DNA from: a virus
Length of the DNA: 39,400 nucleotides
IMG/VR virus record: IMGVR_UViG_3300028115_001651
Location: 1 to 39,400 of that record
Reading direction: 5' to 3' (one strand)
Below the pieces are notes generated by a model. That model was not told the origin of the DNA, ran no database searches, and saw only the letters and a list, made by a program, of their open reading frames with translations. A program made the position numbers and the translations under genes. Numbering within the stretch: position 1 is the stretch's first letter; every line of letters begins with the position of its first letter. This document shows, piece by piece, positions 1 through 13,273 of this stretch.

Positions 1-1039
1 ACATTACTATATCTGGTGTAAATGTAAAAATAACTTTTGCTAATACGTCTACATCAAGTTCGTCTGCTAGTTTTTGAATACGTCCTACTTCAAATAAACC
101 AGGAAGTGTAAGTGTAAAATCCAAACGCATCTGTCTTCTGTGGGTTGCAATAGCACACCCTTTTTTGAAATTATCTACAAATTCGTCGTATTTTAAACCT
201 GTGCGAATATATTCTCCTATTGCACTAGTACCATCAATACTGGCGCAGATTTGCCAATCACGTATTTTTTGTAGTATATCTGAGTAAAGGTTAATGCCTT
301 TATAATCAATACGGCTTAGGTTTGTATTATATCTTGCATACAACCTAGGACCATCTCCTAATTCTACTATGCGTTTCATATATCTCCAGTGTTGTTCATA
401 CATCAGAGGCTCTCCGCCTACCCAATATATTTCTTCAATTCTATGTTCTTCTACTGCTTCACTGAACTCTTTTTCAATTTGTGTATCTTGAAAATGTGAA
501 ATCTCTTTACGCACTTCTGGACGCATCCAGTTGTTTTTTGGATTACTGTAATTAATCATGTTGTGGCTACGTTGTTCTGCTTCCCAACTCGAACTTAGCA
601 TGTCACCACAGGTACGGCATTTAAAGTTACAGAGGTTTGAAAATCTATAGTCCCAACTTATAGGCTTCATTGAGGTCCAACCAGTATCGTCAGTGGTAGA
701 CCATATTTCATCATAACGATGTTGAAACAAGTGCCAAAAGTAAGTTCTATATACATCAGTGTTTAATAATTTGTCTGTACAGACTTCACACTCACTAAGT
801 TTTTCGCCTGACATCATGCGTCTTCTCACACTACGCATGTGATCACTGTTCCAATGCTCTTCGAGTGTGGATGGATTGTAAGTTCCTGTGCCTGCATCAG
901 TGTCTATATACTGCTCAAAGCTCTGTGCCGGTTCTCTACTAGCACAACATAATCTACGTTCAGTTTGAGGTGATAGATAGGTATGTGTCCATGGAGCCAT
1001 ACACAAAGTTTCTGGCTTTGATGTTGGCTTGTTTACCAC
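1..1039 (-). CDS. Radical SAM enzyme with N-terminal twitch-like domain (3' end cut by window edge)
   Basis: The frame is open from a GTG at 1039..1037 to base 1, giving about 346 codons without a stop, so the C-terminus lies outside. The radical SAM cluster motif CNFKCRTC (Cys137, 141, 144) follows the phrase SWDYRFSNL, and GGEP follows in YWVGGEPLM. An N-terminal cysteine set precedes the core: CMAPW (Cys13), the pair Cys31-32, and CEVC (Cys84/87), the layout of an auxiliary-cluster twitch/SPASM-like region placed before the core. The GTG is the only plausible start that keeps Cys13: an in-frame TAG lies a short way upstream and the first ATG lies inside the CMAPW motif. It overlaps the stop of the nucleosidase gene, so translational coupling is likely. 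The substrate is unknown. It is closest in layout to the 401- and 427-aa paralogues further up the operon. Confidence 0.9.
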   Translation of the reverse strand, partial: MVNKPTSKPETLCMAPWTHTYLSPQTERRLCCASREPAQSFEQYIDTDAGTGTYNPSTLEEHWNSDHMRSVRRRMMSGEKLSECEVCTDKLLNTDVYRTYFWHLFQHRYDEIWSTTDDTGWTSMKPISWDYRFSNLCNFKCRTCGDMLSSSWEAEQRSHNMINYSNPKNNWMRPEVRKEISHFQDTQIEKEFSEAVEEHRIEEIYWVGGEPLMYEQHWRYMKRIVELGDGPRLYARYNTNLSRIDYKGINLYSDILQKIRDWQICASIDGTSAIGEYIRTGLKYDEFVDNFKKGCAIATHRRQMRLDFTLTLPGLFEVGRIQKLADELDVDVLAKVIFTFTPDIVM

Positions 1040-1596
1040 AGCTCTAATTGATCCTGTTGTGTTAACATACTTCTAAACAGATCTGCACCTTTGTGAACAT
1101 TAGCTTCCCATTCACGCCCTTGATCTTCACCGTCTGCATCACTGTCTGAGATATACTTGTAACAATCAAATGGAACTCCAAATTTTGCACAAACTTTTGC
1201 TAGTGCGTATGCTTCCATTTCGCAAACTTGATAGTTAATATGTGGAACACTAAAACTGTCTCCTGTGCCACACACGTATAAACTGTCGTGTTTGGTCTGA
1301 CATACTATCATTTGTTCTTCATCACCAGGTGAAACATACAGAGGCAGACCCAGTGGTGTACAATCCATATCACGTTCAATTACTGCACTTATACCGACTA
1401 GTTGACCTTTAAGTGCTTCGGTACCGCCAGCACTGCCATAGTTTATTATTCTTTCATATGCATGATCATTGTAAGCAAGTTCGGTTGTTAAGGCAATACT
1501 TGCATTAACTTTACCAACACCAGTCACGAGTTTTTTATAACCTGATGGTAGCTGCCCTGGCAGTTCTTCTTCTAGTGCTACTACAACCAATATCAT
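1033..1596 (-). CDS. MTA/SAH (5'-deoxyadenosine) nucleosidase-like protein, PNP/UDP phosphorylase superfamily
   Basis: A 187-aa soluble protein matching the landmarks of E. coli Pfs/MtnN as I remember it. ALEEEL at residues 7-12 corresponds to the AMEEEV strand with the catalytic base. VTGVGKVNAS (24-33) is the phosphate-loop equivalent, and INYGSAGG (51-58) is the purine-site turn. CEMEAYALAKVC (125-136) holds the ribose-binding Glu128, and ISDSDAD (149-155) holds the catalytic Asp151. It is shorter than the usual ~230 aa, mainly between GSAGG and EMEA. Family members cleave adenine from methylthioadenosine, S-adenosylhomocysteine and 5'-deoxyadenosine. It overlaps the upstream radical SAM gene by 4 bases, and the next radical SAM start lies within its stop region. 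A role in clearing 5'-deoxyadenosine made by those enzymes is therefore likely. Another nucleoside substrate, as in a phosphorylase, cannot be excluded. Confidence 0.87.
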   Translation of the reverse strand: MILVVVALEEELPGQLPSGYKKLVTGVGKVNASIALTTELAYNDHAYERIINYGSAGGTEALKGQLVGISAVIERDMDCTPLGLPLYVSPGDEEQMIVCQTKHDSLYVCGTGDSFSVPHINYQVCEMEAYALAKVCAKFGVPFDCYKYISDSDADGEDQGREWEANVHKGADLFRSMLTQQDQLELW

Positions 1597-2798
1597 GTTC
1601 TTGGTCCTTCATAATCTATTGCATTAGCTAGTTCTGGATGATGTGTACGTAAATCTTGACTTCTTCTTCGATCTACCTCTGCTACACTTTTGCGTAATTC
1701 TTCGCCGTCTAAACTGGTACCTGCTTGTATAAAATCTACTATGTTAACAAACTCTTTCATATGAAAATCAGATACTTGCGAGCTCATTAATCTATTAGAT
1801 ACTAGCTCTTTTGCACGTTCTGGTAGTGTGCTAACACTGTGATGGCGTGCTTCGTGCAACATGTTCCAGTACACAAAATCAAAATTACGTGTGTCGATCC
1901 AATTTGCCAAGCCTTCCAGATACATGACATTGAATACATTTACAGTTGAACAAACCTGAAGTTGGATGTTTGTATTTCTATCACGCATGGCTTCAAACTG
2001 ATCCATATTTGCGTTTACTTCGTCCCATATAGCATTAGCTCGTTGATATTCAAAACGTGGTCCAACATCGTCGATGCTGAAAGCAATTTCAACCAACTTA
2101 AAATGTTTCCATATTGATTCAGCATGTTTTGGAAACTGTGTTCCATTTGTATTATAGTGTATTTCTACGTTTGATGCAATGCCTCGATCAACCATTCTTT
2201 GCAATAAATCAAAATGTTCTTGAATCATAAATGGTTCACCACCAGTAAACTCTAAGTAACGTATTTGTTCCATAAGTTTATCTATTTCTGTCCAAAACTT
2301 TTGATTACGTCTTGGCCATGCTCCATCTTTTAACATTTTATAATGAAAACTATCTTTACCTTCAAAACTAACTTCTTCTGCGGCAAACGTGCTTGAACTC
2401 CAACTGCCACATATTCTACATTTTAAGTTACAAATGTTTCCGAGTTTAAAATCTATAAACACCAAAGGTTTTGCATCTTGAGTCCACTTAGTATCTGTGA
2501 CAATGTGTTTTAATCTGTCAATGGTGTGCATCCTTTTTGATGTTCGGCCACTGCGTTCTTCATTCCAACATTTACGACAAGTATCAGGTTGTTCACCATT
2601 AACAAACTGCTCACGTAGACGTTTCATGTATTCACTATTGTGTATTTCATCTAAGTCAGTGGTAAGCAAACTATATTTTTTTCCTGCGGTATCAGTTATT
2701 TCTTCTTCTGCTAGACAACACGGACGAACTGTGCCAATTGGCGAAGTCTCTAAACTTATCCATGGTAATACACAAAATTTTTCATGTGGTAACTTCAC
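1593..2798 (-). CDS. Radical SAM enzyme with N-terminal twitch-like domain (401 aa)
   Basis: The radical SAM 4Fe-4S motif is CNLKCRIC (Cys123, 127, 130), followed by the SAM-binding GGEP at 186-189 (EFTGGEPF). Ahead of the core lie CVLPW (Cys9), Cys27-28 in GTVRPCCLAEEE, and CRKC (Cys74/77), with the linker EIHNSEYMKRLREQ between them. That linker closely resembles the iw-s---k-lr region of SPASM/twitch modules, which normally sit C-terminal to the core. The reaction presumably begins with reductive cleavage of SAM to a 5'-deoxyadenosyl radical; the substrate is unknown. It starts inside the stop of the 427-aa paralogue (4-base overlap) and ends with a 4-base overlap on the nucleosidase gene. 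The three genes are thus a tightly coupled unit. Confidence 0.93.
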   Translation of the reverse strand: MKLPHEKFCVLPWISLETSPIGTVRPCCLAEEEITDTAGKKYSLLTTDLDEIHNSEYMKRLREQFVNGEQPDTCRKCWNEERSGRTSKRMHTIDRLKHIVTDTKWTQDAKPLVFIDFKLGNICNLKCRICGSWSSSTFAAEEVSFEGKDSFHYKMLKDGAWPRRNQKFWTEIDKLMEQIRYLEFTGGEPFMIQEHFDLLQRMVDRGIASNVEIHYNTNGTQFPKHAESIWKHFKLVEIAFSIDDVGPRFEYQRANAIWDEVNANMDQFEAMRDRNTNIQLQVCSTVNVFNVMYLEGLANWIDTRNFDFVYWNMLHEARHHSVSTLPERAKELVSNRLMSSQVSDFHMKEFVNIVDFIQAGTSLDGEELRKSVAEVDRRRSQDLRTHHPELANAIDYEGPRT

Positions 2799-4078
2799 TG
2801 TAATTCTTCCAGTTCTGGTATTATATCAAGTATATTTTCATTTCGAATGTCGTCGAGTTGACGTGTCTTTTGCCAAAACTTTTCTAATAGATGTGTGTTG
2901 TCTGTTTTAAGATACTGTAATGCACTTTCAAAACCAACAGTTGCTCTATTTAATTTGTCTTGTGGACGTAACCACGCAAGATGATCCTGATATGCAAGAT
3001 TGATCTTATCTTTGTATGCTTGCGGTGCAATATCAATTCTATAGTAATCAGGATCTTGTAATATATTAACATTTAGATCCTGTGCTTGAAGTAGTCCTTT
3101 ATCAACCCAGTCTCGATGAAATTCAGGTATGTGCAATGCATTCATAATGCTTAACGTTGGCGAAATATAAAAATCCACACGAGGACATATCTCTATCATC
3201 TTGCGTCTATTGTTTTCTACAACTTCCCATTTGGTTCCTTTGCGTATGTATTCTGCACGATCTCCCATTGCATCTAAACTAGCACCTACTGCTACACTTT
3301 CAAACTTTTTCCAGTAATCAAACACCAATCTATCTTTAAGTTGGACATGTGTAAAATTTGTATTATAAATTAGTCTGACATCAAAACGTCCACGTTTTTC
3401 TAATTCTTCTAGTATTACATAATGTTCATCCATCATGCAAGGCTCGCCACCAGCAAAGTAAATTTGTTCTACATAGTCAAGATGCTCCATCAACTGTTCC
3501 ATCATATCAGTTTTAAAACGTCCTGCATAGTTTAATACGTTGTTGTTTTTTGCCCATTCTGGACCAGCTAGTGCGACTTGATCTTTGTACCAACTACTTG
3601 AAAAGATGTGTCCACAACTCCTACAACTTAGGTTACACAAGTTTGAAAAACGTATATCCCAGTAGGTCATTTCAAAGTCCTTGTACTCACCGTCTGATGT
3701 GGTGTTTTGTGTTCGGTGTATATGGTGTCCGTGATGCTTGTTTGCACTTTGTCTACCACTAAAGAATCCTGATGCTTCTTGTTCATAGCATCTACCACAT
3801 GCGGCATTTTTAGTTTCTGTCAACATGTCTTGACGCAGTTTCTTCTGCTCTGGTGAATTCCAAATTTCAGTCATGGTGTTTGTCTTGCAGTTACCTACTT
3901 GCCCTACACCCATTTCAGCATGACAACAAGGATAGGCTTCGCCAGTTGGATAGGCATGCAAGTGAATCCATGGATACATACAAAATGTCTTACTCTCACT
4001 TAGGAGAAAACGTTCACGTTCTTCTAAGTCACTTAATTTTATTTTGATTGGATCACTGCTATTATAATCATAACTCAC
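2795..4078 (-). CDS. Radical SAM enzyme with N-terminal twitch-like domain (427 aa)
   Basis: The core motif CNLSCRSC lies at Cys148, 152, 155 and GGEP at 210-213 (YFAGGEPCM). The N-terminal region has CMYPW (Cys33), PTGEAYPCCHAEMGVG with Cys51-52, an extra Cys64, and CGRC (Cys94/97) followed by YEQEASGFFSGR. This is the fullest version of the N-terminal cysteine signature in the window, with a His-rich stretch (HHGHHIH, about 115-121) just after it. The segment DIRFSNLCNL is nearly the same as in the partial gene at the window edge. It overlaps the upstream paralogue by 11 bases and the downstream one by 4. The substrate is not readable from sequence. The class is near certain, the biological role is not. 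Confidence 0.93.
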   Translation of the reverse strand: MSYDYNSSDPIKIKLSDLEERERFLLSESKTFCMYPWIHLHAYPTGEAYPCCHAEMGVGQVGNCKTNTMTEIWNSPEQKKLRQDMLTETKNAACGRCYEQEASGFFSGRQSANKHHGHHIHRTQNTTSDGEYKDFEMTYWDIRFSNLCNLSCRSCGHIFSSSWYKDQVALAGPEWAKNNNVLNYAGRFKTDMMEQLMEHLDYVEQIYFAGGEPCMMDEHYVILEELEKRGRFDVRLIYNTNFTHVQLKDRLVFDYWKKFESVAVGASLDAMGDRAEYIRKGTKWEVVENNRRKMIEICPRVDFYISPTLSIMNALHIPEFHRDWVDKGLLQAQDLNVNILQDPDYYRIDIAPQAYKDKINLAYQDHLAWLRPQDKLNRATVGFESALQYLKTDNTHLLEKFWQKTRQLDDIRNENILDIIPELEELQ

Positions 4079-5462
4079 TAAACCACTCCTTCATACTAGG
4101 AAATGTTGTTAAAAAGTTTTTATTTCGACGTGTGTCGTATTGTGAGTAGAATTGTTTAAAATCATTATGTAGTTTTGGCATATCAAATGCATCACTGTGA
4201 GGGGTTTTTACAACGTCAAGATAATCAATTAATCTTTGAGTTTGATTTAGTTCATGTTCGTGTAATAATTCATTGTTGTAATTTTTATCATACCATTTCT
4301 GTAATCTATCTTTGTGAAATGTTCTAATCGAGTTTGGCAAAACCAATGGAGATTGAAAACTAGGAAAACGTAGTATGTTCAAAGTAAAATTAGGAAAATC
4401 TCTTCCATATTGTGCTTTAAATTTTAGTAGATAAGATAAAAATTCTGGTAATGTTTCTAAACAAAGTGCATTGATTGTACACATGTTGTGTAAACCACGT
4501 AACTTACCTGATCCAGCTAGTAAATGCATGTTCCTAGACCACACACTCCAATCTAAACCATCTCGAATGTATTCTGCATGATTTACCAAACTTTCATTGG
4601 AAGTGTAAATGTCCAGTGGTGCACTGTCTGCTCTGTCGAGCAGTTTTAAAATATCTGCACTTTCTAATCCAAGATTACTGTTTATTGCAATTCTTGTTTT
4701 ACTTGCTCCTTTGTTGTCTTTAAACCAATCTAACAATTTCCATAGATGTCCACTCATCATTGGTTCACCACCAGTTATACGTAATTCATCTAACGTTTTG
4801 TGTAAGTCACTATCCCACCATTTAAAAAACGCATCTATGTAAGGATTTGTTTCTGTGTATTTGTACAATTGTGAACTGTCATGTTCATGAGTAAAATGAT
4901 TGCGTCCATCGCTTTCTAAGTTTTTATATGCACCATTGTTTTTTATATCTTTTACCCATGTTGTACTAAACGCAGGATTACAATAACTACAGGCAAATTG
5001 ACATGTTCTGTCAAATGCTATTTCAAGTGTCTTTAGATTTACATCTTCTTGTGGTGATGCTGAGTGTGCTTGTTTAAGTTCGTCATCGGTATAAATTACA
5101 CTTTTATAGACTCGATCACTTATATTATTTCTATCAACATCTTCAATCTTCCAACAATATTCACAACCAGCAGGACGTTTGCCCTGTTGCATCATTTCTC
5201 GTTCTGCTTTTTTCTTAGGTGTGTTATGCAATGCTTTTGGATTTGCAATCACATCTTCAACACTTACTTTATGAGGAAGTGGATGATGACAACTTGTGGT
5301 CATACCTGAACCTAGCCAGATAGTTGCATTGTACCATTTTGCTCCACACATACTTGAACTAAGTGGATCAAGCACTCGTTTTTTATATTCAAGATCGGTT
5401 TCGTTACCTTGCTTAGGCAAATAAGTTCTCCATTTTATACTTTTGTTCAATGGCAAACTCAT
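4068..5462 (-). CDS. Radical SAM enzyme, long subtype, copy B of the duplicated pair (464 aa)
   Basis: The frame is open up to 5504, but I place the start at the ATG at 5462..5460 (MSLPLNKSIKW), with an AGG about 5 bases upstream. From this start the cysteines CGAKW (39), SCHHP (58) and CEYC (100/103) fall at the same residue numbers as in the 478-aa paralogue, which supports the choice. The core motif is CQFACSYC (Cys154, 158, 161) and GGEP lies at 231-234 (RITGGEPMM). Shared phrases with the 478-aa copy include ALHNT, NPY(I/V)(D/E)AF and GGEPMM. Unlike the shorter paralogues it has a single Cys, not a CC pair, in the first block, so the auxiliary site may differ. Even with the internal start it overlaps the preceding GT-like gene by about 50 bases, more than any other junction here. 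Substrate unknown. Confidence 0.91.
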   Translation of the reverse strand: MSLPLNKSIKWRTYLPKQGNETDLEYKKRVLDPLSSSMCGAKWYNATIWLGSGMTTSCHHPLPHKVSVEDVIANPKALHNTPKKKAEREMMQQGKRPAGCEYCWKIEDVDRNNISDRVYKSVIYTDDELKQAHSASPQEDVNLKTLEIAFDRTCQFACSYCNPAFSTTWVKDIKNNGAYKNLESDGRNHFTHEHDSSQLYKYTETNPYIDAFFKWWDSDLHKTLDELRITGGEPMMSGHLWKLLDWFKDNKGASKTRIAINSNLGLESADILKLLDRADSAPLDIYTSNESLVNHAEYIRDGLDWSVWSRNMHLLAGSGKLRGLHNMCTINALCLETLPEFLSYLLKFKAQYGRDFPNFTLNILRFPSFQSPLVLPNSIRTFHKDRLQKWYDKNYNNELLHEHELNQTQRLIDYLDVVKTPHSDAFDMPKLHNDFKQFYSQYDTRRNKNFLTTFPSMKEWFSEL

Positions 5463-6408
5463 CGAACCTAGTTTTATTATAACGCAAATCTGGCAACATG
5501 TCAAGGTACATTTCTTTAAGATCTTGTGTTTGTAACCACTCTATTAGATTGCATATGTTTTTGTGTATGTCGTCAATGTTGCAGTTTTCAAGATCGATAT
5601 GAGGCCAATAATGATTGAATGTTCGAAATCCTTGCTTTCGCAACAGCTTATAAACTTCTAATTGTCCGTTGATTACAAAAGGACGTAATCCAATTATTGG
5701 TTTGTAGGTTTTTTCTGTGATATAGGTCCACAAATGATCTTCAAAATCAGTTTCACTAACCACATTCAAAAAATGATTTTGCCAGTACTCAGGCCTTCCA
5801 AGACTATGAATATCATGGGGTATTCCAAAATCATCAGGCATACCCCAGTTGCCTTCTTTGTACTCTTCAATTGTTTCGCCTACATTTCGATCGTTGCCTA
5901 GTGTAACCACCCCCAGTTTGCTAAGTTTGCGATCATCTAACATTTGTACAAACTGTTTTCTATGATCTCTAGGTTTGCGATTGTAGTTGATAAAAATGTA
6001 TTGGGGATTGTTAAACAGTAAATCGCTATCTTTGTAATTAGGAAAATAGTTGCCAATAACTGTGCTAAAGAAGTTAAAATGGTAATCTGTATCAAAGTGT
6101 CCCAACAAATAAATGTTTTCAGCACCAGTGGCTTTAATAAATTGGTCAGTTTCTTGTTTGTTAAAGAAGCAAGGGTCTTCACTGGCAAGTAAAAATAAAT
6201 TATCTATACTACAGTATTGGCAGTATTCCATAAATTTATCATATTCGTTGTTATTTTTGAACTGTGGACCAAACCAAGTCATGTTAATTAGTACATTTTT
6301 CTTGTCTTTGAAATTTTTTTCAATTTGCTCAGAGATATCATGCATCAAGGCTATTTGATGCTTGTGCCATTGACTACCCCCAGAAAATGTACTTCCAAAT
6401 GTTCTCAT
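5413..6408 (-). CDS. Glycosyltransferase-like protein, copy B of the duplicated pair (331 aa)
   Basis: No signal peptide or membrane segment is visible. The protein shares a C-terminal block with the 317-aa protein upstream: TEKTYKPIIGLRPF at about residue 229, then LRKQGFRTFNHYWP. A central stretch, IFINYNRKPRDHRKQF (about residues 140-155), looks like the start of a nucleotide-sugar-binding half. The E-K-T---PI-----PF pattern followed by an aromatic-rich GF-TF segment reminds me of the donor-site end of GT-B or GT10-type glycosyltransferases, and of uncharacterised proteins common in marine phages. This is resemblance, not proof. It lies 18 bases after the 478-aa radical SAM stop and overlaps the next radical SAM gene by about 50 bases. 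No good Shine-Dalgarno precedes its ATG, so its translation may rely on coupling. Any alternative function remains open. Confidence 0.55.
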   Translation of the reverse strand: MRTFGSTFSGGSQWHKHQIALMHDISEQIEKNFKDKKNVLINMTWFGPQFKNNNEYDKFMEYCQYCSIDNLFLLASEDPCFFNKQETDQFIKATGAENIYLLGHFDTDYHFNFFSTVIGNYFPNYKDSDLLFNNPQYIFINYNRKPRDHRKQFVQMLDDRKLSKLGVVTLGNDRNVGETIEEYKEGNWGMPDDFGIPHDIHSLGRPEYWQNHFLNVVSETDFEDHLWTYITEKTYKPIIGLRPFVINGQLEVYKLLRKQGFRTFNHYWPHIDLENCNIDDIHKNICNLIEWLQTQDLKEMYLDMLPDLRYNKTRFDEFAIEQKYKMENLFA

Positions 6409-6426
6409 ATGTATAATTATGGATAG

Positions 6427-7863
6427 CTACTTGTGAGCCAAATATTTACACTCGGCCCACCAGTCTTTCATTTCAGGAAATGTTTTAAGGAAGTCTGTGC
6501 CTCTGCGTCTGTCGTGTTCATTGAAAAATCTGTAAAAGTCTGCTTTATTGCGTCGTATATATTCTGGATCTAGTTTTTGCCCGTTACGCATCCAGGCAAT
6601 ATCTCTGTCAAGCCTTGCAACCTCATAGTCTTTAAAACCTTTGAAACGTGTTTCTTCTGTTTCTAAATTTCCGTTCATCCAAGACTTGATAACTTCCAAC
6701 TCGTGTACATAACTTTCTGGCAATATTTGTAAACTTTGCCAAGTTGGTGTACGTAGCACTGGTGTATCAAACCAAACACGTTGATAGGTGTTACTGTAGA
6801 TTTGACGTAATCCAAGTATTGCGGTGAACAACTTTTGTAATGTGGTAATACTCAGATTGTTCATTGTTACAATAAAAGTTATGCTATTTCGTTCTGGAAT
6901 ATCACTTAAAAATTGATTTACTCTATCCCAAAGCAATTCGAAGTTTAACCCATGACGCATGTATTCAGCAGGTTCAAACATTCCATCAAGACTTACGTAT
7001 TGCATAAAATGTTCTAACTTGTAAGGTTTCTCACATAGCATTGTTACATAGCCTTTGTAACGTTGCCAAAGTTTTTCTTCTACACTAAAGTTGCTTGTTG
7101 TACTAAGATGTAGTTTGCTTGATGGATTTTGCAACACATGATCAAATACTCGATATGTATTACGATCCATCATTGGTTCTCCGCCAGTCATGCGAAAATG
7201 TTCTAGTTCAGGATACAGTGTTGGCCACCACTGCCAGAACGCTTCAACATATGGATTGTGTTCTCGTGCTGGTATTGGTCTGCGTTCACCTACAAAATGA
7301 CTTGGATCATTGTGTGGTGTTGATGTAGGCCATGCACCTTCACGTTCTGTTTCAGCCATCCATGTTGAACTATACTGTGGAGAACAATAACTGCAACTTA
7401 GATTACATGCACTATTAAAATCTACTTCTACATAACTTGGTGTAATATCTTGATCCCAAGGAGCATTTTTGATCTTTTCAAAGTCCTTGATTGCCCAAGG
7501 TTCACCTGAACGATAGTGTCTATCACTGAGTTTTCCATTGTCTTCCATTGCCCAACAGTAACTACACTCAGGGGGTCTAGTGCCTTCCAACATCAACTTA
7601 CGTTGTTGTTTTTTGTGTTCTGTGTTGTGCAATGCACTAGGATTAGACTTAATTGATTCTGCATCTGCTCTATGTAACGGAGGATGGTAACAACTATTGT
7701 TCATTCCCGTTGTTAAGTGCAAACTTAATTGTTTCCATTTTGCTAAACAGAAACTTGGACTCACAGTGTCTAACTTTTGTTGGGCACGTTCAGCATCAGA
7801 CAGAAAATTGCTTTTAAAATTCTCATCAACACTGTCACCTTTATTTTGTTTAGTATCTGTCAT
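6427..7863 (-). CDS. Radical SAM enzyme, long subtype, copy A of the duplicated pair (478 aa)
   Basis: The core motif CNLSCSYC lies at Cys153, 157, 160 and GGEP at 227-230 (RMTGGEPMM). The N-terminal block has CLAKW (Cys39), SCYHPPLH (Cys58), the helix-forming ALHNTEHKKQQRKLM, and CSYC (Cys100/103) then WAMEDNGKLSDR. This is the layout of the other four radical SAM proteins but with single cysteines where three of them have CC. It resembles the 464-aa paralogue along its whole length, pointing to duplication followed by divergence. It starts inside the end of the 317-aa GT-like gene (14-base overlap) and is followed after 18 bases by the second GT-like gene. It should generate a 5'-deoxyadenosyl radical; the acceptor is unknown, with a sugar, lipid or peptide all possible. 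Confidence 0.93.
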   Translation of the reverse strand: MTDTKQNKGDSVDENFKSNFLSDAERAQQKLDTVSPSFCLAKWKQLSLHLTTGMNNSCYHPPLHRADAESIKSNPSALHNTEHKKQQRKLMLEGTRPPECSYCWAMEDNGKLSDRHYRSGEPWAIKDFEKIKNAPWDQDITPSYVEVDFNSACNLSCSYCSPQYSSTWMAETEREGAWPTSTPHNDPSHFVGERRPIPAREHNPYVEAFWQWWPTLYPELEHFRMTGGEPMMDRNTYRVFDHVLQNPSSKLHLSTTSNFSVEEKLWQRYKGYVTMLCEKPYKLEHFMQYVSLDGMFEPAEYMRHGLNFELLWDRVNQFLSDIPERNSITFIVTMNNLSITTLQKLFTAILGLRQIYSNTYQRVWFDTPVLRTPTWQSLQILPESYVHELEVIKSWMNGNLETEETRFKGFKDYEVARLDRDIAWMRNGQKLDPEYIRRNKADFYRFFNEHDRRRGTDFLKTFPEMKDWWAECKYLAHK

Positions 7864-8803
7864 TTATAAATATTTCAAAATCTTTATCAGTTAGTTTCAT
7901 AAAACGTTTTTTGTTGTGTTCTAAGACTGGTTTCATCTCTTTATACATAGAATTTAGTTCTGATATATCTTTGTTCGCTAAAAAGTCAACAACTTTCGTA
8001 ATTTCTATAGGTTGATGATTTGCAGAATCTTCACTATAACCTTCGTCCCACCAACTACCAAATGTCTTAAATCCTAAATCTCTAAGTCTATGTAGGTACC
8101 ACTGTGGTCCTTGAACTATAAATGGAGTTTCTAAAATAATAGGGCGCCATGTTTTTTCAGTTGGAAAAAACGTTTGACCTGTGTAATATGTTTCGCAAAC
8201 AAGTTCAACTAAAAAATTAGAATACTCTGAATGTATGTTGTTGTGTTGATCTTTTAGAATAGGATACGATACTTTTTCGTCTTTTAGAAGAGGAGAATCC
8301 TCTATCAAATCTACTGCATTTGGTAATGCTTTAACGCCATAGACATGTATTAATTCTTCTAGTCCAAGATTGTCTTTATGAAAGTCTGATTTATTATTAT
8401 AATGAAATGTTTGATTTGCCAATTTATGTTTGTACAAATAACTGCTAAGGTACAACCTATGTAAATTACTGCGACCAATAAACATGCCAATTGGTTTTTT
8501 TATATTCTTGTTAATTTTGGCATTAGCAAGTGAATCTTTTGTGCTCCTGAGAAAATGAGGACTTTGCTTTACAAATCTAATATTACCCACTGGTGGTTGT
8601 ACTATATTACGTGTAATTACAGTGGTACGATCTTCCCAGTCACTTATATACTTCAGCAGATCTAATACTTCAAAATTAGGACCTTCATCGAGCAAATCTA
8701 TAATTAAGTCTTGATTTGTATTTTTTGCTTCTACAATTGCTTGAACAGTTTCGCCTAAATTCCAAACTTTGCTATCACTGGTAATTACATTTGCAGTTAC
8801 CAA
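7850..8803 (-). CDS. Glycosyltransferase-like protein, copy A of the duplicated pair (317 aa)
   Basis: This is a soluble protein related to the 331-aa protein downstream. Shared points are TEKTWRPIILETPF (about residue 213) followed by LRDLGFKTFGSWWDEGY, and a central MFIGRSNLHRLYLSSYL corresponding to the RDHR segment of the other copy. The N-terminal third, with DLLDEGPNFEVLDLL, shows no motif I can name. The C-terminal block resembles the donor-binding end of GT-B-type glycosyltransferases, but I see no diagnostic catalytic residue, so the enzymatic call is tentative. It overlaps the upstream GT-A-like gene by 7 bases and the downstream radical SAM gene by 14, so it is co-translated with both. 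It could instead be a binding or scaffold partner of the radical SAM enzyme that always follows it. Confidence 0.55.
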   Translation of the reverse strand: MVTANVITSDSKVWNLGETVQAIVEAKNTNQDLIIDLLDEGPNFEVLDLLKYISDWEDRTTVITRNIVQPPVGNIRFVKQSPHFLRSTKDSLANAKINKNIKKPIGMFIGRSNLHRLYLSSYLYKHKLANQTFHYNNKSDFHKDNLGLEELIHVYGVKALPNAVDLIEDSPLLKDEKVSYPILKDQHNNIHSEYSNFLVELVCETYYTGQTFFPTEKTWRPIILETPFIVQGPQWYLHRLRDLGFKTFGSWWDEGYSEDSANHQPIEITKVVDFLANKDISELNSMYKEMKPVLEHNKKRFMKLTDKDFEIFINDRY

Positions 8804-9726
8804 CCTTCTTGTCTCCTAATTACATCAATTTCACGGGTCATAATTGTTTGATTATGCCAGTTACTACGATAGTGATGTTTGAAAAATTTGCTTTGTACAG
8901 GAGTATAAATGTTCATTGGCAACCCTAGTTGCCTTGCAAGTTCTTCCATTTTTAGTGTTACAAGTTCGCCTGGAGCAAGGTGCTTTACATCGTTCCACAT
9001 ATCTTCAAGTAAAGCAAAGTCTTGCACCTGTTTGTAATCCCAATCACTGAGCATGGTTTTCCATGTGCCTAACCTTGATCCTGCAATTGCCCACAGTCCA
9101 TGTTCAGTATCTGCACCTACATTGTGCCAGATGGTTAAATGGTCCAAGTTCCTGTTATGTACACGTTCTTTAAATTCACTCGCACTCGGCTTGGTTCCTC
9201 TATCAAGGCACATTTTTACGCCTTCTCTAAAGCCCGCACGAAAAGCATGTTTCTCACTGCCTCCTGGGTATGTTGTGCTATAGCAGTTATACATTGGCCA
9301 ATAAAGATCATCAAAACAAAATTCAACATCAGTTTCATCTGCACCTTCACTTGCTTCATGTGTACGCATGTTGTTCACAAATGTTTTAGTCCATGAACTA
9401 ATGCCACCGTTGCCATACATAAGTCCATTTATATCGTTACGGGCACGCCATCTGTAGACTGCTTGTTCGTACTGTTCTGTTTTGTATTCTAAGGTTTCGT
9501 TGAAAAAACTTTCTTCAGGTAGATTGTCACCATCAATTAAGATAAAACGTTCTGTATCACTGGCTTCGGCGGCGGCTTTGTGTGCAGCATCACTACCTTT
9601 TACACCATCTACACGTTTTGCCCAAGGTACCATGTTTTGTATCTTAATCCAAAACTCTTCCTTCTGAGGTTCGTCATAGCTTAGGTATATACAGTCTAGG
9701 TCAGCTACATCTACAGAATTTGTCAT
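8797..9726 (-). CDS. GT-A-type glycosyltransferase-like protein with DGD motif (309 aa)
   Basis: The N-terminus reads as a nucleotide-sugar-binding fold. DCIYLSYDEPQKEEF (residues 11-25) is the first strand and donor loop, VDGVKGSDAAHKAAAEA is a helix, and RFILIDGDNLP places a DxD-like Asp65-Gly-Asp67 at the end of a hydrophobic strand, where GT-A enzymes bind metal and diphosphate. The rest is rich in Trp and His with no known domain visible to me. The start is firm: ATG overlaps the stop of the secreted-protein gene in the usual 4-base arrangement. It ends with a 7-base overlap on the GT-like gene of copy A, so it probably feeds the same pathway. The sugar donor and acceptor cannot be read from the sequence. 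I am more sure of the fold than of the activity. Confidence 0.6.
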   Translation of the reverse strand: MTNSVDVADLDCIYLSYDEPQKEEFWIKIQNMVPWAKRVDGVKGSDAAHKAAAEASDTERFILIDGDNLPEESFFNETLEYKTEQYEQAVYRWRARNDINGLMYGNGGISSWTKTFVNNMRTHEASEGADETDVEFCFDDLYWPMYNCYSTTYPGGSEKHAFRAGFREGVKMCLDRGTKPSASEFKERVHNRNLDHLTIWHNVGADTEHGLWAIAGSRLGTWKTMLSDWDYKQVQDFALLEDMWNDVKHLAPGELVTLKMEELARQLGLPMNIYTPVQSKFFKHHYRSNWHNQTIMTREIDVIRRQEGW

Positions 9727-10097
9727 TGTCTATATTTCCCATCAAACGGTTCCAAGTCATTTCCACCTATAATAACACATGCTACCTGTCTATCACCAAA
9801 GTCCTGAAAAGAAAATATACTAAAAGTCTTGCGATCTTTAGAAACATACATAAGAAAGTCAGCCTCTTGAAAGCCATCTAAATTGATTGGTTTAAAAGTA
9901 AAAGTTCCACTTGCAAATTCTTCTTCTTTGTAATAATTTGTAATTTCACTGATGTAGTCAACACCATCTTCTCTACAGGGAATAGTGATATTGAGAAGCA
10001 GTTGTGTTTTTGGTCGAGGTTTAGGGGACGGCACAGGTTCTGCACTTGCGATAGTTACAAAAAGTATCACAAACAGTATTGATAAAAGTTTTCTCAT
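9723..10097 (-). CDS. Small predicted secreted/periplasmic protein with signal peptide (124 aa)
   Basis: Residues 1-19 form a clear Sec signal peptide: Met-Arg-Lys, a hydrophobic run (LLSILFVILFVTI), then ASA before Glu20, a good type I cleavage site. A Pro/Lys-rich linker (PVPSPKPRPK) follows. The mature ~105-aa domain has two cysteines, Cys41 and Cys107, that could form a disulfide in the periplasm. The layout of Cys, a helix containing YY, a strand with TFTF, and a late GDRQVACVIIGG reminds me of small exported proteins of alphaproteobacteria and their phages. The ribosome binding site is the strongest in the cassette (AGAAGGAG, 5-6 bases before ATG), suggesting high expression. It is the only clearly exported product in the cassette. 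It overlaps the next GT gene by 4 bases. Function unknown; it could be an adaptor, an exclusion factor or a target of the modification enzymes. Confidence 0.85.
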   Translation of the reverse strand: MRKLLSILFVILFVTIASAEPVPSPKPRPKTQLLLNITIPCREDGVDYISEITNYYKEEEFASGTFTFKPINLDGFQEADFLMYVSKDRKTFSIFSFQDFGDRQVACVIIGGNDLEPFDGKYRQ

Positions 10098-10112
10098 TTT
10101 TACTCCTTCTAC

Positions 10113-10478
10113 CTAATCTTGGTAGTAAGTCTTGAGCTTCCACTTGGTTGGACCTTCTTGGTCAACAATCATAATATTATCTGCTCTAGTTGAGGTAGAT
10201 CCATCTTGATCTGGTACAAGTTTTGTCCAAATTTCAGCATCTACTAATTTTTCAATAGTACCGTTTCGTATCCTAACATCATAACGTCCTTCGGTATATT
10301 GTTCTTTTGAGACTACAATATAATCACCTTGAGATTTATCATCCATGGTATAAAAAAGAGGCTCACATGTTTCTTTATTATAGTATAATCTGTACTCGTA
10401 GTCAACCTTATTTTTTTCTATGTCGGCTATTAAACCATTTAGAATTGCAAGTACATCTTCACCCATAATAGTCTCCAA
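10113..10478 (-). CDS. Conserved-looking phage protein of unknown function (121 aa)
   Basis: An acidic, soluble protein with no signal peptide, membrane segment or cysteine cluster. The middle reads as a small beta-rich fold: EYRLYYNKETCEPLFYTM, then GDYIVVSKEQYTEGRYDVRI and RNGTIEKLV. The phrase YIVVSKEQY-EGRYDVR--NG-I is of a kind I associate with short hypothetical proteins in T4-like marine phages, with no known function. Translation could start at 10478 or at the internal Met5 (10466); both overlap the upstream GT gene, which ends at 10459. It is followed after 15 bases by the secreted-protein gene, which has its own strong ribosome binding site. I see no catalytic motif. Confidence 0.7.
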   Translation of the reverse strand: METIMGEDVLAILNGLIADIEKNKVDYEYRLYYNKETCEPLFYTMDDKSQGDYIVVSKEQYTEGRYDVRIRNGTIEKLVDAEIWTKLVPDQDGSTSTRADNIMIVDQEGPTKWKLKTYYQD

Positions 10479-11238
10479 AATCTTTTGCTAGATGTTTTTG
10501 ATTATAGTGTACAATTCCTGTTTGATTGTGTCCGTTGATACGTAATACACCATCAACTATTTCCCAAACAAGTTCTTTACTCCAATCTTCTGCACTGGTT
10601 CCAATTATTTGTGACTTCATATGAACAATCTGTGGTCCTATACCAGGTGTAATGTAGTCTTCTGCACACAAAGAGTAAACCAGGTCTGTGCTGGCTATTT
10701 CGTCTTGAGCGCCTTGAATAATAGTTTTTACTGAATTCCACTCTTCAAAAATTTGTCTTATTTTATAGAAAAACTTTTGTGCCTCTCTGCTCATGCGCCA
10801 GTAGGTTACAGCATTATAAACGTCTGGAAGATTGTTACGATCAAAAATTTTCCTGTAAGTTCTATTCTTTGAAGTCTTTCCATGAAAATCTCTACATCCT
10901 GTAGATATCCAAACTGGCTTGTTTCTAAACAAGGTCCACCAATGGTCGATTGGCCCACTAACCACCATATCTGCTTCTAGTTTAACAGTTTCATGAAAAG
11001 GACTTGCTTCAAATACCTGCCAGTCGGTGGTCCATCCACCAGTATTTCCATAAGGAAAATTCACCACATAGTCAAAGATACTGTTTTGATAATTTTCAGC
11101 ATCTGTAAGCAAACAAACCTTTGCATCTTTGTGCCAGTATTTTATACTTCGTGCCAGAGTAATAGCACATGTCAAATAGTCTACTTGCTCGTCGAGACCA
11201 GCAACTATCATGTATCCTTTTTCAGCTTGGTATTGCAT
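10459..11238 (-). CDS. GT-A-type (GT8-like) glycosyltransferase-like protein (259 aa)
   Basis: The N-terminal half follows a GT8-type plan. GYMIVAGLDEQVDYLTCAITLARSI (quoted in part: IVAGLDEQVDY at 11-21) gives the first strand, the donor loop and the long helix. KVCLLTDA (40-47) is the second strand. HETVKLEADMVVSG (82-95) occupies the DxD strand, with Glu-Ala-Asp in place of Asp-x-Asp. Polar aromatic residues cluster after it (DHWWTLF). The acidic triplet could still bind metal, but the substitution lowers confidence in the activity. The ORF overlaps the preceding GT gene by 17 bases; a later start at Met10 (11211) is possible and keeps the first strand. Two GT-A-like genes in a row suggest successive sugar additions. 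Confidence 0.6.
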   Translation of the reverse strand: MQYQAEKGYMIVAGLDEQVDYLTCAITLARSIKYWHKDAKVCLLTDAENYQNSIFDYVVNFPYGNTGGWTTDWQVFEASPFHETVKLEADMVVSGPIDHWWTLFRNKPVWISTGCRDFHGKTSKNRTYRKIFDRNNLPDVYNAVTYWRMSREAQKFFYKIRQIFEEWNSVKTIIQGAQDEIASTDLVYSLCAEDYITPGIGPQIVHMKSQIIGTSAEDWSKELVWEIVDGVLRINGHNQTGIVHYNQKHLAKDFGDYYG

Positions 11239-12016
11239 ATAATTCTTCTAGATAACTTTTACACATCACGTGTAAATCATTGTTTTTCACACATATTTTT
11301 TTATTGTTATTTTTTTCTTGGTACTCGATCCACCAGGTGTTGTCCATATAGCTTACTTTTACATCAGTATCAACATTTAACAAAGGCCACGGAATTTCAC
11401 ACTGTGTTGGATGTAGATTTCCGTTGCACAATAAAAGAGCAATGCTTAGTGCATAGTCATTTCTAAACTGTTTTGTACTAAAACCAAAAAGTTCAGCATA
11501 GTGTTTATAATTTTCTTGGACCATTTTCCAAACTGTAAACACATCTTCTGTGAAACTATTGCTTTTTTCAAATATAACCACAGTGGCCCACCACATGTTT
11601 GTGTTTTTGGTACCAAACTTTTCTATTCTTGATTTATCATGATGTATACTCTGTACTGATCTATGACACAAAAAAGGTTGTGAGCTTGTTAAAAATGGTA
11701 GCAGTGCATCATTGTTGATCATATAGTCACTGTCAATGAGCAGTGTTCTGGTGTATGGCGACAGTTCTAAAGCACGATATCTTCCAAAATTATACCAAGT
11801 TGTAGATGATTGTCTATCAACAAAAAATCGACGATTGGTATCAGCACCTCTGTCTACAATGATTTGTTTTTCAAACACGTCTGTGTCAATGTGTTTGTCC
11901 GTTACAAGCGTGACAGGAATATCAAGATATTTGATTACACGACTTGCACATTCCATTGCCAATCTAGTGTAAGATATCTCGCTATCAAAAGCAAAAATCA
12001 AAGCACCAACGGTCAT
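11222..12016 (-). CDS. GT-A-type glycosyltransferase-like protein with DSD motif (264 aa)
   Basis: I choose the ATG that overlaps the preceding stop (ATGA), giving MTVGALIFAFDSEISY as the N-terminus; the open frame extends 12 codons further upstream inside the preceding gene. The first strand (GALIFAF), a helix (TRLAMECASRVIKYL) and a second strand (VTLVTD) are followed by YNFGRYRALELSPYTRTLL, then IDSDYMI, with Asp95-Ser-Asp97 as the metal-binding DxD. This is the strongest GT motif in the cassette. Downstream is DALLPFL, then a region rich in His, Trp and Cys. No membrane anchor is seen. The enzyme likely transfers a sugar from a nucleotide-sugar donor in the host cytoplasm; the acceptor is unknown. 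It overlaps its upstream neighbour by 4 bases and its downstream neighbour by 17. Confidence 0.68.
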   Translation of the reverse strand: MTVGALIFAFDSEISYTRLAMECASRVIKYLDIPVTLVTDKHIDTDVFEKQIIVDRGADTNRRFFVDRQSSTTWYNFGRYRALELSPYTRTLLIDSDYMINNDALLPFLTSSQPFLCHRSVQSIHHDKSRIEKFGTKNTNMWWATVVIFEKSNSFTEDVFTVWKMVQENYKHYAELFGFSTKQFRNDYALSIALLLCNGNLHPTQCEIPWPLLNVDTDVKVSYMDNTWWIEYQEKNNNKKICVKNNDLHVMCKSYLEELYAIPS

Positions 12017-12315
12017 CGATTTTTTGAGATTTCTTTGTATTCTGCTTGCCAAGCATTCATTTGTTCTTGCCAGCGTTGTTTTGCCAAGTCACATAATTCA
12101 TTGCTATCGACACTAACTGGAGTATTGTATATGTCTTCTAGCACAACAGTGCCTTCGCACGAATTACACAACACAATTAGTTCAGGTGATGCACGCCACA
12201 TGCCGCCATTGTGTGCAAAAACCATCTTGGCCTGATAGGTTTCACGCAAAATAGTCCTTGCTTGTTGATGGTTAAATCTTGTTTTAATATTTTGGGAAAG
12301 TTGATCTGTTTGCAT
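12013..12315 (-). CDS. Conserved-looking small phage protein (100 aa), first gene after the structural block
   Basis: A soluble 100-aa protein. A polar helical N-terminus precedes AKMVFAHNGGMWRASPELI (29-47), LCNSCEG (Cys50/53), EDIYNTPVSVDS and a C-terminal Gln/Trp-rich helix (RWQEQMNAWQAEY). From memory, similar short proteins with NGG-(W/F)-A-PELI and a MNAW helix sit near the structural genes of T4-like marine phages, without known function. A zinc site is possible from the CxxC but would need two more ligands. Its ATG lies inside the right arm of a perfect inverted repeat and lacks a Shine-Dalgarno sequence, so translation may be controlled by that hairpin. Its stop overlaps the next GT start by 4 bases. 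Confidence 0.75.
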   Translation of the reverse strand: MQTDQLSQNIKTRFNHQQARTILRETYQAKMVFAHNGGMWRASPELIVLCNSCEGTVVLEDIYNTPVSVDSNELCDLAKQRWQEQMNAWQAEYKEISKNR

Positions 12316-12336
12316 ACTGTTAATTAGTATGCAAAC
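12308..12336. repeat. Perfect inverted repeat, 11-bp arms and 7-base loop, covering a start codon
   Basis: The arms GTTTGCATACT and AGTATGCAAAC are exact reverse complements around GTTAATT. The repeat lies at the junction between the late structural block and the accessory cassette, and the right arm on the coding strand contains the ATG of the 100-aa gene. No run of T follows it on the minus strand, so it is not a classic intrinsic terminator in that direction. It could be an RNA hairpin hiding the start codon, an operator for a dimeric repressor, or an mRNA processing site. Confidence 0.8.
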
Positions 12337-12361: not shown

Positions 12362-13273
12362 TTATGACAATGACCACGATGCACTGTTTTGAGAAACTGT
12401 TCCCCAGCTGTTAGTTAGATTGGCTGTTGATGGTGGACGTATAACTGTTGTCATAGTTAGTGTACCATCTACCTGATCAGTTCCAATTGTGCTATCGTTA
12501 TCGTCTAGTGTTACTGCATAAGTTATGACCGCTCCTGATACACTTGCTTTTATTTCAATAAAGTTACTGGTGTATAGATAGGTAGTTGTAAATTTTTTCA
12601 AAATTGTTGTTGGTGTTCCGGTATAGTTTGTTACTGCACCGTAAGCAGTATTTAGAGTGTCCTCTGTGCCTGATCCGCCAATTTTTGAAGTGCCTGTGTA
12701 TACTGTTCCAGCAATAGTTTTACTTGCGGCTGATCCTGTTGCAACAATAGTACCTGTTGCACTTAGTAGGTTTGTCCAACTGGTGTTTTGTGTTGTACTA
12801 GAACCACCTGAGCGTGAAAAACTCATTCTTATCATACCACCAGCGTTGAAAAAGTAACGCAGTTGGTTTGCACTGGCAAATGTTATGGTTTTTGATGTTG
12901 TTGCAGTGGTACTCCATGCACTGGTTGTTGTAGTAGCTGCACTACTGTCCGAGCCACTAGCGTTGGCATCCAAACGACCACTTGTAATATCCGTAATATT
13001 ACTTGCTAGTGTTGTGTAAGCCTGTATTGTATCTCCCGCACTTGGATTTCCTATGGGTGATAAACTTGTGTTTTGATGTGCACCAGCACTTGTCATTGGT
13101 GTTAACAAACTGCCCCATTGTGTTGCAGTTATAGTTGATCCTGCACTTACTGCACTTATTGCACTTTGACCATATCCTGAATCGCCTGATCCAGTGCTCC
13201 ATATTGCATTTATATCATCTTTGAAGCCGTTGTAGTCATCATCTAAGATGGTATTTCCTGAGCTATAAGTCAT
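12362..13273 (-). CDS. Virion structural protein, peripheral tail/fibre type (303 aa)
   Basis: The N-terminus (TYSSGNTILDDDYNGF, then INAIWSTGSGDSGYGQS) and the following ITATQWGSLL-----AGAHQNT have the form I recall for a structural protein family widespread in T4-like cyanophages and pelagiphages. That family is usually annotated as virion structural protein. The rest is a Ser/Thr/Gly/Ala-rich beta protein (runs of SSAATTTTSAWSTTATT at about 108-124) with FASANQLRYFFNAGGMIRMS in the middle, ending in NSASWSLS. This composition is typical of fibre or appendage proteins. A late-type octamer and AAAGGG ribosome binding site lie just upstream, so it is probably made late and independently. It is the last structural gene before the junction hairpin. 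Its exact location in the particle is unknown. Confidence 0.75.
   Translation of the reverse strand: MTYSSGNTILDDDYNGFKDDINAIWSTGSGDSGYGQSAISAVSAGSTITATQWGSLLTPMTSAGAHQNTSLSPIGNPSAGDTIQAYTTLASNITDITSGRLDANASGSDSSAATTTTSAWSTTATTSKTITFASANQLRYFFNAGGMIRMSFSRSGGSSTTQNTSWTNLLSATGTIVATGSAASKTIAGTVYTGTSKIGGSGTEDTLNTAYGAVTNYTGTPTTILKKFTTTYLYTSNFIEIKASVSGAVITYAVTLDDNDSTIGTDQVDGTLTMTTVIRPPSTANLTNSWGTVSQNSASWSLS

Follow-up and report, generated by a model that had tools for sequence, protein, structure and literature searches.

A conserved cassette of radical SAM enzymes and glycosyltransferases beside the tail genes of aquatic jumbo phages, with a possible role in glycan assembly and editing

The cassette combines five radical SAM genes, which all belong to the N-terminal-twitch family NF033640, with five glycosyltransferase genes (three of GT-A type, two of GT-B type), an MTAN-like nucleosidase gene and genes for three small proteins, all on a single strand of a 39,400-nt window (the whole stretch of viral DNA analysed). 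We read it as a phage-encoded pathway for the assembly and editing of a glycan, with the product most likely on the envelope of the infected cell, and give this reading a probability of about one half. That the genes form a pathway, as the initial annotation had proposed, is supported by conserved order and content, by intact motifs and by the sugar-biosynthesis and decoration genes linked to the cassette in relatives.

Gene content and organization

The features of the cassette and its upstream flank are, in window coordinates:

rS1: 2..1039, minus strand; N-terminal-twitch radical SAM enzyme, C-terminus lost at the window end
NUC: 1033..1596, minus; short MTAN-like nucleosidase of the MTA/SAH/5'-deoxyadenosine type; optional and confined to the window subclade
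rS2: 1593..2798, minus; N-terminal-twitch radical SAM enzyme
rS3: 2795..4078, minus; N-terminal-twitch radical SAM enzyme
rS4: 4068..5504, minus; N-terminal-twitch radical SAM enzyme, real start probably inside the ORF
GB1: 5413..6408, minus; GT-B-fold glycosyltransferase (predicted structure); optional
rS5: 6427..7863, minus; N-terminal-twitch radical SAM enzyme
GB2: 7850..8803, minus; probable GT-B glycosyltransferase related to GB1; optional
GA1: 8797..9726, minus; GT-A-fold glycosyltransferase (predicted structure); core
SEC: 9723..10097, minus; small protein that begins with a signal-peptide-like segment; optional
U121: 10113..10478, minus; small protein, near-core
GA2: 10459..11238, minus; predicted GT8/glycogenin-like glycosyltransferase; core
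GA3: 11222..12052, minus; predicted GT8-like glycosyltransferase; core
U100: 12013..12315, minus; conserved small protein encoded at the head of the unit; core
Palindrome: 12308..12336, no strand; hairpin overlapping the U100 start codon
T303: 12362..13273, minus; Ser/Thr-rich probable tail protein, immediately upstream of the cassette
T519: 13300..14859, minus; tail-fibre-like structural protein

The gene set initially claimed (five radical SAM genes, glycosyltransferases, a nucleosidase and a secreted protein, co-directional) is present in full. The claimed spacing, with overlaps of 4–50 bases and gaps under 20 bases, holds for the most part. Neighbouring genes are spaced by −20 to +18 bases with two exceptions: GA3 has an overlap of 40 bases, and the longest ORF of rS4 shares 92 bases with GB1, which departs from the claim. 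In the orthologue alignment conservation of rS4 starts only near residue 45, and its true start may therefore lie further in. The window end truncates rS1, leaving 346 of about 436 amino acids inside. SEC, whose N-terminus resembles a signal peptide when judged by eye, NUC, GB1 and GB2 are optional among relatives, SEC being found in a subset.

Conservation and carriers

The comparison set consists of 109 dereplicated IMG/VR loci, and the number that is testable varies by gene. The core order U100-GA3-GA2-U121-GA1-rS5-rS4-rS3-rS2-rS1 is the same in 107 of 108 loci, so the arrangement is far beyond chance. U100 is present in all 80 testable loci and U121 in 100 of 108, and rS5 lies downstream of GA1 in 95 of 97. 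Order and content are thus conserved across phage genomes with the motifs intact, and we found neither scattered single genes nor inactive glycosyltransferase or radical SAM motifs. However, the retrieved loci are related by descent, so that synteny alone overstates functional linkage, and we count this shared descent against the glycan reading.

The carrier is a jumbo myovirus, and cassette relatives occur in many aquatic samples; the marine T4-like phage setting given initially was inaccurate. The baseplate protein of the carrier matches that of Agrobacterium phage Atu_ph07 at 34%, and T519, which falls in PHROG tail and structural families, has a homologue in the same phage. A tblastn search with rS5, GA1, rS3, T303 and GA2 against 50,697 phage records returned zero carriers, and none of the cultured phages in that collection has the cassette. 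Cellular carriage was considered for small contigs in bacterial MAGs (L098-L102, L105) and rejected, as most contain T303 and are probably mis-binned phage.

Flanking tail genes and transcription signals

The cassette always adjoins tail genes, a position that we count against the glycan reading. T303 lies directly upstream in 67 of 67 testable loci, and its Ser+Thr content is 34%, compared with 17–21% in other structural proteins. Both features would suit glycan machinery acting on proteins of the virion itself, in the tail (T303 for example) or the capsid, as would the top Foldseek match of GA1, a capsid glycosyltransferase of PBCV-1 (E=1.5e-4; TM just 0.3–0.4). However, Ser/Thr richness is common among tail-fibre-like proteins, the GT-A matches of GA1 are generic, and in most relatives a predicted terminator and a separate, putatively leaderless sigma70-type promoter part the cassette from the tail genes. 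Glycosylation of the virion is possible but unlikely, and we lean towards the host surface as the site of the product.

The intrinsic terminator follows T303 in 75 of 101 relatives (0.4 expected), and TATAAT occurs near the U100 ATG in 54 of 110 (4 expected), 5–6 nt before the ATG in 49 of these. Upstream of T303 the late-promoter motif [AT]ATAAATA is unconvincing (9 of 110 against 4.4 expected). The promoter and terminator come only from relatives, which we count against the glycan reading; the window itself has the hairpin instead. This has 12 pairs in the terminator scan and 11 in the RNA fold (z −6.7), and in relatives TAC/GTA is replaced by TGC/GCA, a compensated change.

Radical SAM enzymes

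All five radical SAM proteins score above the curated NF033640 cut-off of 170 bits (rS1 269, rS2 345, rS3 404, rS4 283 and rS5 304), and each contains CxxxCxxC. This motif of the SAM cluster is kept in 673 of 673 orthologues from the dereplicated IMG/VR loci, and each clade has four to five conserved N-terminal Cys as well as one extra conserved Cys outside the two clusters, namely C265 in rS1, C283 in rS2, C298 in rS3, C348 in rS4 and C277 in rS5. In the radical SAM tree rS1 forms a monophyletic clade (support 1.0), and rS4 and rS5 are sisters. The PDB sequence nearest to the N-terminal domain of rS3 is the auxiliary domain of BtrN (E=0.0013), an enzyme that oxidises an aminocyclitol. We know of no NF033640 member with an established substrate, and some bacterial members occur in ACP/ketosynthase or other natural-product-like clusters; both points are counted against the glycan reading.

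BtrN, NeoN and HygY, from aminoglycoside biosynthesis, share with the cassette enzymes a radical SAM domain and a twitch auxiliary cluster. They act on sugars or cyclitols, and HygY and NeoN are cited as sugar epimerases of this class in which one Cys is critical (PMC10991966). BtrN has its auxiliary domain at the C-terminus, the cassette enzymes at the N-terminus.

Peptides are the substrates of many twitch/SPASM radical SAM enzymes, which favours a RiPP-like maturation, with a peptide cross-linked or otherwise altered by the radical SAM enzymes and given sugars by the glycosyltransferases. The unit does contain the small proteins U100, U121 and SEC, and the equivalent slot of Atu_ph07 holds peptide-maturase-like radical SAMs beside a protein ending in CHSSCHASCH. 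However, the Atu_ph07 enzymes fall outside the NF033640-type cassette family, U100 and U121 carry no conserved Cys or core motif, and the genes linked in relatives are sugar enzymes. Internal gaps of at most 18 bases leave no space for a hidden precursor, and no adjacent RiPP precursor with a recognisable core was found in the cassette. We consider a peptide product improbable. By eye C5 and gp166 of Atu_ph07 seemed homologous, which hhalign did not support (probability 0.3%).

Glycosyltransferases

GA1, GB1 and GB2 have no match in Pfam, PHROGs or NCBIfam, and the structures of GA1 and GB1 were therefore predicted with AlphaFold2. The GA1 model (pLDDT 86) matches GT-A-type folds at Z 8–9 (rmsd 3.2–4.3 over 129–143 residues), and the protein has a conserved DGDN motif. 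GA2 and GA3 are predicted to be related GT8/glycogenin-like proteins. The GA2 profile matches glycogenin with E=0.0013 across 90 residues, although Pfam gives no match, and GA3 matches GA2 in a profile-profile comparison (probability 99.1); the conserved motifs are EADM and DxDY, respectively. Searches of PDB sequences with the profiles of GA3 and the GB proteins returned no significant match.

The GB1 model (pLDDT 80) best matches T4 BGT (Z 11.4), with fold matches over 262–271 residues at rmsd 4.9–5.1. The best 50 matches of the structural search are exclusively glycosyltransferases, and plain Foldseek gave nothing below 0.001. GB2 aligns with GB1, and the two share a C-terminal EKT..(K/R)P..PF..G..GF.TF motif. 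Since T4 beta-glucosyltransferases act on DNA and glycan modification of phage DNA is already known, the glycosyltransferases and radical SAM enzymes might together alter phage DNA bases. However, GB1 is optional, and among its fold matches are many glycosyltransferases of carbohydrates and proteins. The cassette lies beside tail genes and outside any replication module, and a modified-nucleotide synthesis gene is not linked. DNA hypermodification has very little likelihood.

Nucleosidase and the island beyond the window

NUC matches the phosphorylase/nucleosidase family PF01048 (2e-14, 53.8 bits, cut-off 25.1), and its best PDB match is 4pr3. Against curated MTAN equivalog models it reaches 38–55 bits, below the cut-offs of 74–169, and it is therefore graded as MTAN-like only, a short, divergent relative. 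E11, E128 (EMEA) and the Asp of an ISD motif are invariant in orthologues; we take these to be the equivalents of catalytic E12, E174 and D197 of E. coli MTAN.

The window truncates the island, and the remainder seen in relatives encodes a carbamoyltransferase, an amidinotransferase and a sugar aminotransferase along with a sugar dehydratase/epimerase and further glycosyltransferases. A DegT/DnrJ aminotransferase and a 4,6-dehydratase-like SDR are linked to the cassette in these relatives, outside the window. In the window's subclade, relatives also carry a SAM synthetase (MetK) and a PaaD/SufT-like Fe-S factor in the island, alongside the MTAN-like gene. An independent search seeded with the amidinotransferase, in which Asp, His and Cys are invariant, recovers rS1 in 45/45 cases, rS2 in 44/44, the SDR in 42/42 and the carbamoyltransferase in 45/49.

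This enzyme mix recalls aminoglycoside pathways. The rS3 twitch domain is BtrN-like, the amidinotransferase matches arginine:glycine and StrB1-type enzymes, the carbamoyltransferase is TobZ-like, and the sugar aminotransferase is nearest to scyllo-inositol transaminase. The product might then be a soluble, aminoglycoside-like small molecule released against competing bacteria or phages. However, a scan of proteins encoded downstream in L213 identified no cyclitol-forming enzyme (inosose synthase or equivalent), the regions read contain no export or self-resistance gene, and a short lytic infection is ill-suited to a diffusible antibiotic. We regard such a release as markedly improbable.

Proposed pathway

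The glycan reading draws support from the five glycosyltransferases of the window, the additional ones in relatives and the acidic motifs conserved in GA1-GA3. Where the initial annotation had named a surface glycan, lipid or protein as product, the evidence for a glycan is far stronger than that for either of the others. GA1-GA3, with GB1, GB2 and others beyond the window, would join nucleotide sugars, taken from the host or modified by the phage, into an oligosaccharide. Each of the five twitch radical SAM enzymes may abstract hydrogen from a different sugar carbon, leading to epimerisation or oxidation, with its extra conserved Cys a candidate hydrogen donor. Downstream genes in relatives would add amino groups (the DegT/DnrJ aminotransferase acting after the 4,6-dehydratase-like SDR) as well as amidino, carbamoyl and methyl groups.

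Radical SAM enzymes are inhibited by 5'-deoxyadenosine (PMC8102628). In the window's subclade the nucleosidase would clear this compound and SAH, while the SAM synthetase would provide SAM and the PaaD/SufT-like protein could aid Fe-S cluster loading. A Wzx-type flippase (PF01943) was not found in 9 long records and an NTP_transferase match in just 1 of the 9, so the phage would rely on the host for both, a dependence that we count against the reading. The cassette would be expressed separately from the tail genes, and the benefit we infer is that a product on the envelope of the infected cell could mask receptors; the superinfection exclusion suggested initially would be a further candidate role.

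Comparison with known systems

Tail-gene neighbourhoods that contain radical SAM and glycosyltransferase genes are already known. The host recognition cluster of pelagimyophages (PMC7029224) likewise places GT8 and radical SAM genes by tail-fibre genes in large aquatic myophages, and surface alteration has been proposed for it. However, that cluster is described as hypervariable, whereas the island has a fixed order of orthologues, a jumbo lineage and a linked aminosugar/amidino/carbamoyl pathway. The LPS clusters of cyanophages P-SSM2, S-SSM7 and S-SM2 (PMC3037559) and the capsular clusters of jumbo phages (PMC7824862) also combine sugar and glycosyltransferase genes with a presumed change of the host surface. 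Unlike the island, these are sporadic and polymorphic, and no comparable radical SAM set appears in the accessible parts of the two reports. Cyanophages often carry NodU-like carbamoyltransferases.

TARA_ERS488813_N000010, a T4-like genome from an aquatic phage, is described in the accessible part of its report (PMC5332604) as having 12 radical SAM genes, cas4, grx and paaD, and so resembles the island in its many radical SAM genes and an Fe-S assembly gene. It is presented there as a case of Fe-S metabolism, and that part describes no cassette, order or glycosyltransferase link; the genome may carry a related island. The Vibrio phage isolates K566 and K567 have GT8 genes interspersed among five related radical SAM genes, two of which score above the NF033640 cut-off, and PagP and LpxC lie next to them; we count the set in K566 in favour of the glycan reading. 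These radical SAMs form a clade separate from the cassette enzymes in the tree, and a profile search of the two phages found no orthologues of GA1, U100 or T303. A literature search limited to papers outside subscription yielded no description of the island, and its fixed-order form appears to be undescribed.

A bolder version of the glycan reading, which we offer only tentatively, is a complete, vertically maintained jumbo-phage pathway for an aminoglycoside-like oligosaccharide. A run of five radical SAM epimerases or dehydrogenases would rewrite its stereochemistry once it is assembled, and the product would re-coat the infected cell (or the virion). If true, this radical chemistry would be unusually elaborate for a virus. 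NF033640 enzymes are common in aquatic phages, and a fixed island with five orthologous members and dedicated glycosyltransferases makes their function testable as one system, to which the SAM, Fe-S and by-product housekeeping genes of one subclade contribute. Experiments could start from cultured phages that have related genes, such as Vibrio K566 and KVP40-like phages. Such a pathway would show that phages keep multi-step radical sugar chemistry over the long term, beyond sporadic auxiliary genes.

Gene content and conservation

The first 12.3 kb of the window contains 14 tightly packed ORFs on the minus strand. The initial annotation counted five radical SAM genes among them, and all five (rS1–rS5) score well above the cut-off of NF033640, an NCBI family defined by an N-terminal twitch domain. 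The nucleosidase (NUC) is a short MTAN-like protein by sequence, family and structure-database matches. Support for the glycosyltransferases proposed alongside comes from sequence for GA2 and GA3, from predicted fold for GA1 and GB1, and from alignment with GB1 for GB2, a probable member. GA2 weakly matches glycogenin/GT8, and GA3 is its homologue. GA1 has no family match; its AlphaFold2 model (pLDDT 86) has a GT-A-type fold (Z 8–9, about 140 residues). However, the fold matches also include nucleotidyltransferases, so its predicted role as a glycosyltransferase draws on the neighbouring genes and an invariant DGDN as well. Plain Foldseek gave weak matches for the GB1 model (pLDDT 80). On a second look its top 50 structural matches are glycosyltransferases only, the best being T4 BGT (Z 11.4, 262–271 residues, rmsd 4.9–5.1).

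In IMG/VR the nucleosidase as query returned 18 loci, rS3 returned 74 and GA1 at least 596. The arrangement, previously likened to a pathway, keeps the same order in 107 of 108 dereplicated GA1 loci, although these carriers are related by descent and synteny is not independent evidence at each locus. Genes were counted in 109 dereplicated GA1 loci, each scored only where the locus is long enough. Upstream of GA1 are T303, a Ser/Thr-rich probable tail protein (67/67), the small protein U100 (80/80), GA3 (86/86), GA2 (100/100) and the small protein U121 (100/108); downstream are rS5 (95/97), rS4 (82/85), rS3 (76/80), rS2 (39/40) and rS1 (34/35). The presence of NUC, GB1, GB2 and the small protein SEC varies. 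Loss of the radical SAM motif was not seen, CxxxCxxC being present in 673 of 673 proteins. Protein identities fall to 27–60% with every motif retained, which argues for selection. In a tree including bacterial and Vibrio-phage members each of rS1–rS5 is monophyletic (support 0.95–1.0), with rS4 and rS5 as sisters; the five are thus old paralogues retained side by side. Four divergent loci (L089, L091, L092, L105) carry rS5 followed by several rS3-like genes replacing rS4–rS1, and the GA block wherever the record is long enough. The cassette also occurs on small contigs in bacterial MAGs (L098–L102, L105; Verrucomicrobia, Betaproteobacteria, Rickettsiales, Pelagibacter, Flavobacterium, Rhodobacteraceae), which are probably phage sequences binned in error.

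Expression signals

The T303–U100 junction contains an intrinsic terminator in 75 of 101 distinct relatives (0.4 expected). TATAAT lies no more than 25 nt from the U100 ATG in 54 of 110 (4.0 expected), 5–6 nt before it in 49, and Shine-Dalgarno-like sequences precede U100 in 15 of 110 as against 91 of 110 for T303. In relatives the cassette transcript therefore reads as leaderless, sigma70-type and shielded from tail-operon transcription. Within the window's own subclade a hairpin takes the place of these signals:

Window 12308–12336: palindrome or strong hairpin, 11–12 pairs, overlapping the U100 start codon.

It shows a compensated base-pair change in relatives, and may be an operator or translational switch.

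The wider island and its carrier

Downstream content was read in 14 long records of relatives. In 13 of these rS1 is followed by C5, a protein with no family match that may work together with the radical SAM enzymes:

L213 (a relative's locus) 1497–2555: C5, 352 aa, the gene immediately following rS1 in almost every relative.

Past C5, a SAM synthetase and an FkbM methyltransferase each occur in 3 of the 14 records, a NodU/TobZ-like carbamoyltransferase in 12 and a PaaD/SufT-like Fe-S protein in 5. Facing this unit lie an amidinotransferase with Asp/His/Cys retained (10/14) and two GT-like genes; next come a long GA1-like glycosyltransferase (13/14), a DegT/DnrJ aminotransferase (13/14) and a dehydratase/epimerase SDR (13/14), followed by core phage genes such as thyX. 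An independent search with the amidinotransferase found, among dereplicated testable loci, rS1 in 45/45, rS2 in 44/44, C5 in 47/47, the SDR in 42/42 and the carbamoyltransferase in 45/49. Two single-cell contigs (L227, L228) belong to Marine virus AG-345-D19; one 8-kb piece of L227 joins an N-twitch radical SAM gene, a carbamoyltransferase and an amidinotransferase, the island's trio recurring here in a different marine phage.

The window's baseplate wedge protein is 33–35% identical to those of the jumbo myoviruses Atu_ph07, SCTP-2, Munch and CBB. Its gene run matches that of Atu_ph07 (gp25, wedge protein, giant protein, homologues of T220 and the tail-fibre-like T519).

Window 15603–29144: giant structural protein, single ORF, 4513 aa, homologous to those of Atu_ph07 and Salmonella phage PHA46.

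Records of relatives also reach about 345 kb and hold as many as 14 NF033640-like genes, so the source is a jumbo phage. In the slot after its tail genes, cultured Atu_ph07 (L229, 16909–23647) instead carries radical SAM genes outside this family, three in number, together with a cupin/JmjC protein and one of 296 aa that has the C-terminal end CHSSCHASCHNSRSRR and resembles a peptide substrate of radical SAM modification.

Proposed function and target

The enzymes linked to the cassette belong to aminosugar synthesis and decoration. By sequence, BtrN is the closest protein of solved structure to the twitch domain of rS3, and the twitch radical SAM enzymes HygY and NeoN act as epimerases on aminoglycoside sugars (PMC10991966). 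Each of rS1–rS5 has one further conserved Cys outside both cluster sets, a candidate hydrogen donor of an epimerase. The nucleosidase would clear 5'-deoxyadenosine, a fitting role because this product inhibits radical SAM enzymes (PMC8102628), while the SAM synthetase and Fe-S protein may have supply roles. Among nine long records searched none has a flippase and one has nucleotide-sugar synthases, so host machinery would provide both functions.

The separate sigma70-type expression slightly favours the host surface as target, as does Vibrio phage K566 (L198, 16458–29244), where GT8/GT4 genes are interspersed among related radical SAM genes and the lipid A genes pagP and lpxC follow. Glycosylation of the virion remains a serious rival, since the cassette always adjoins Ser/Thr-rich T303.

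The general kind of cluster is already known: in pelagimyophages the tail fibres have glycosyltransferases and radical SAM cassettes as neighbours (PMC7029224), LPS clusters occur in cyanophages (PMC3037559), and a T4-like genome was noted for its 12 radical SAM genes and paaD (PMC5332604). The literature searched yielded no account of the present island, with its five enzymes in fixed order and amidino, carbamoyl and amino-sugar genes linked to them, nor was the island found in any cultured phage of the collection searched. Bacterial NF033640 genes at L103 and L112 belong to clusters of natural-product-like make-up, with a carrier protein, ketosynthase-like genes and further radical SAM genes, which offer a lead to the biochemical function of the family, and Vibrio phage K566, an isolate, provides an analogue open to experiment.
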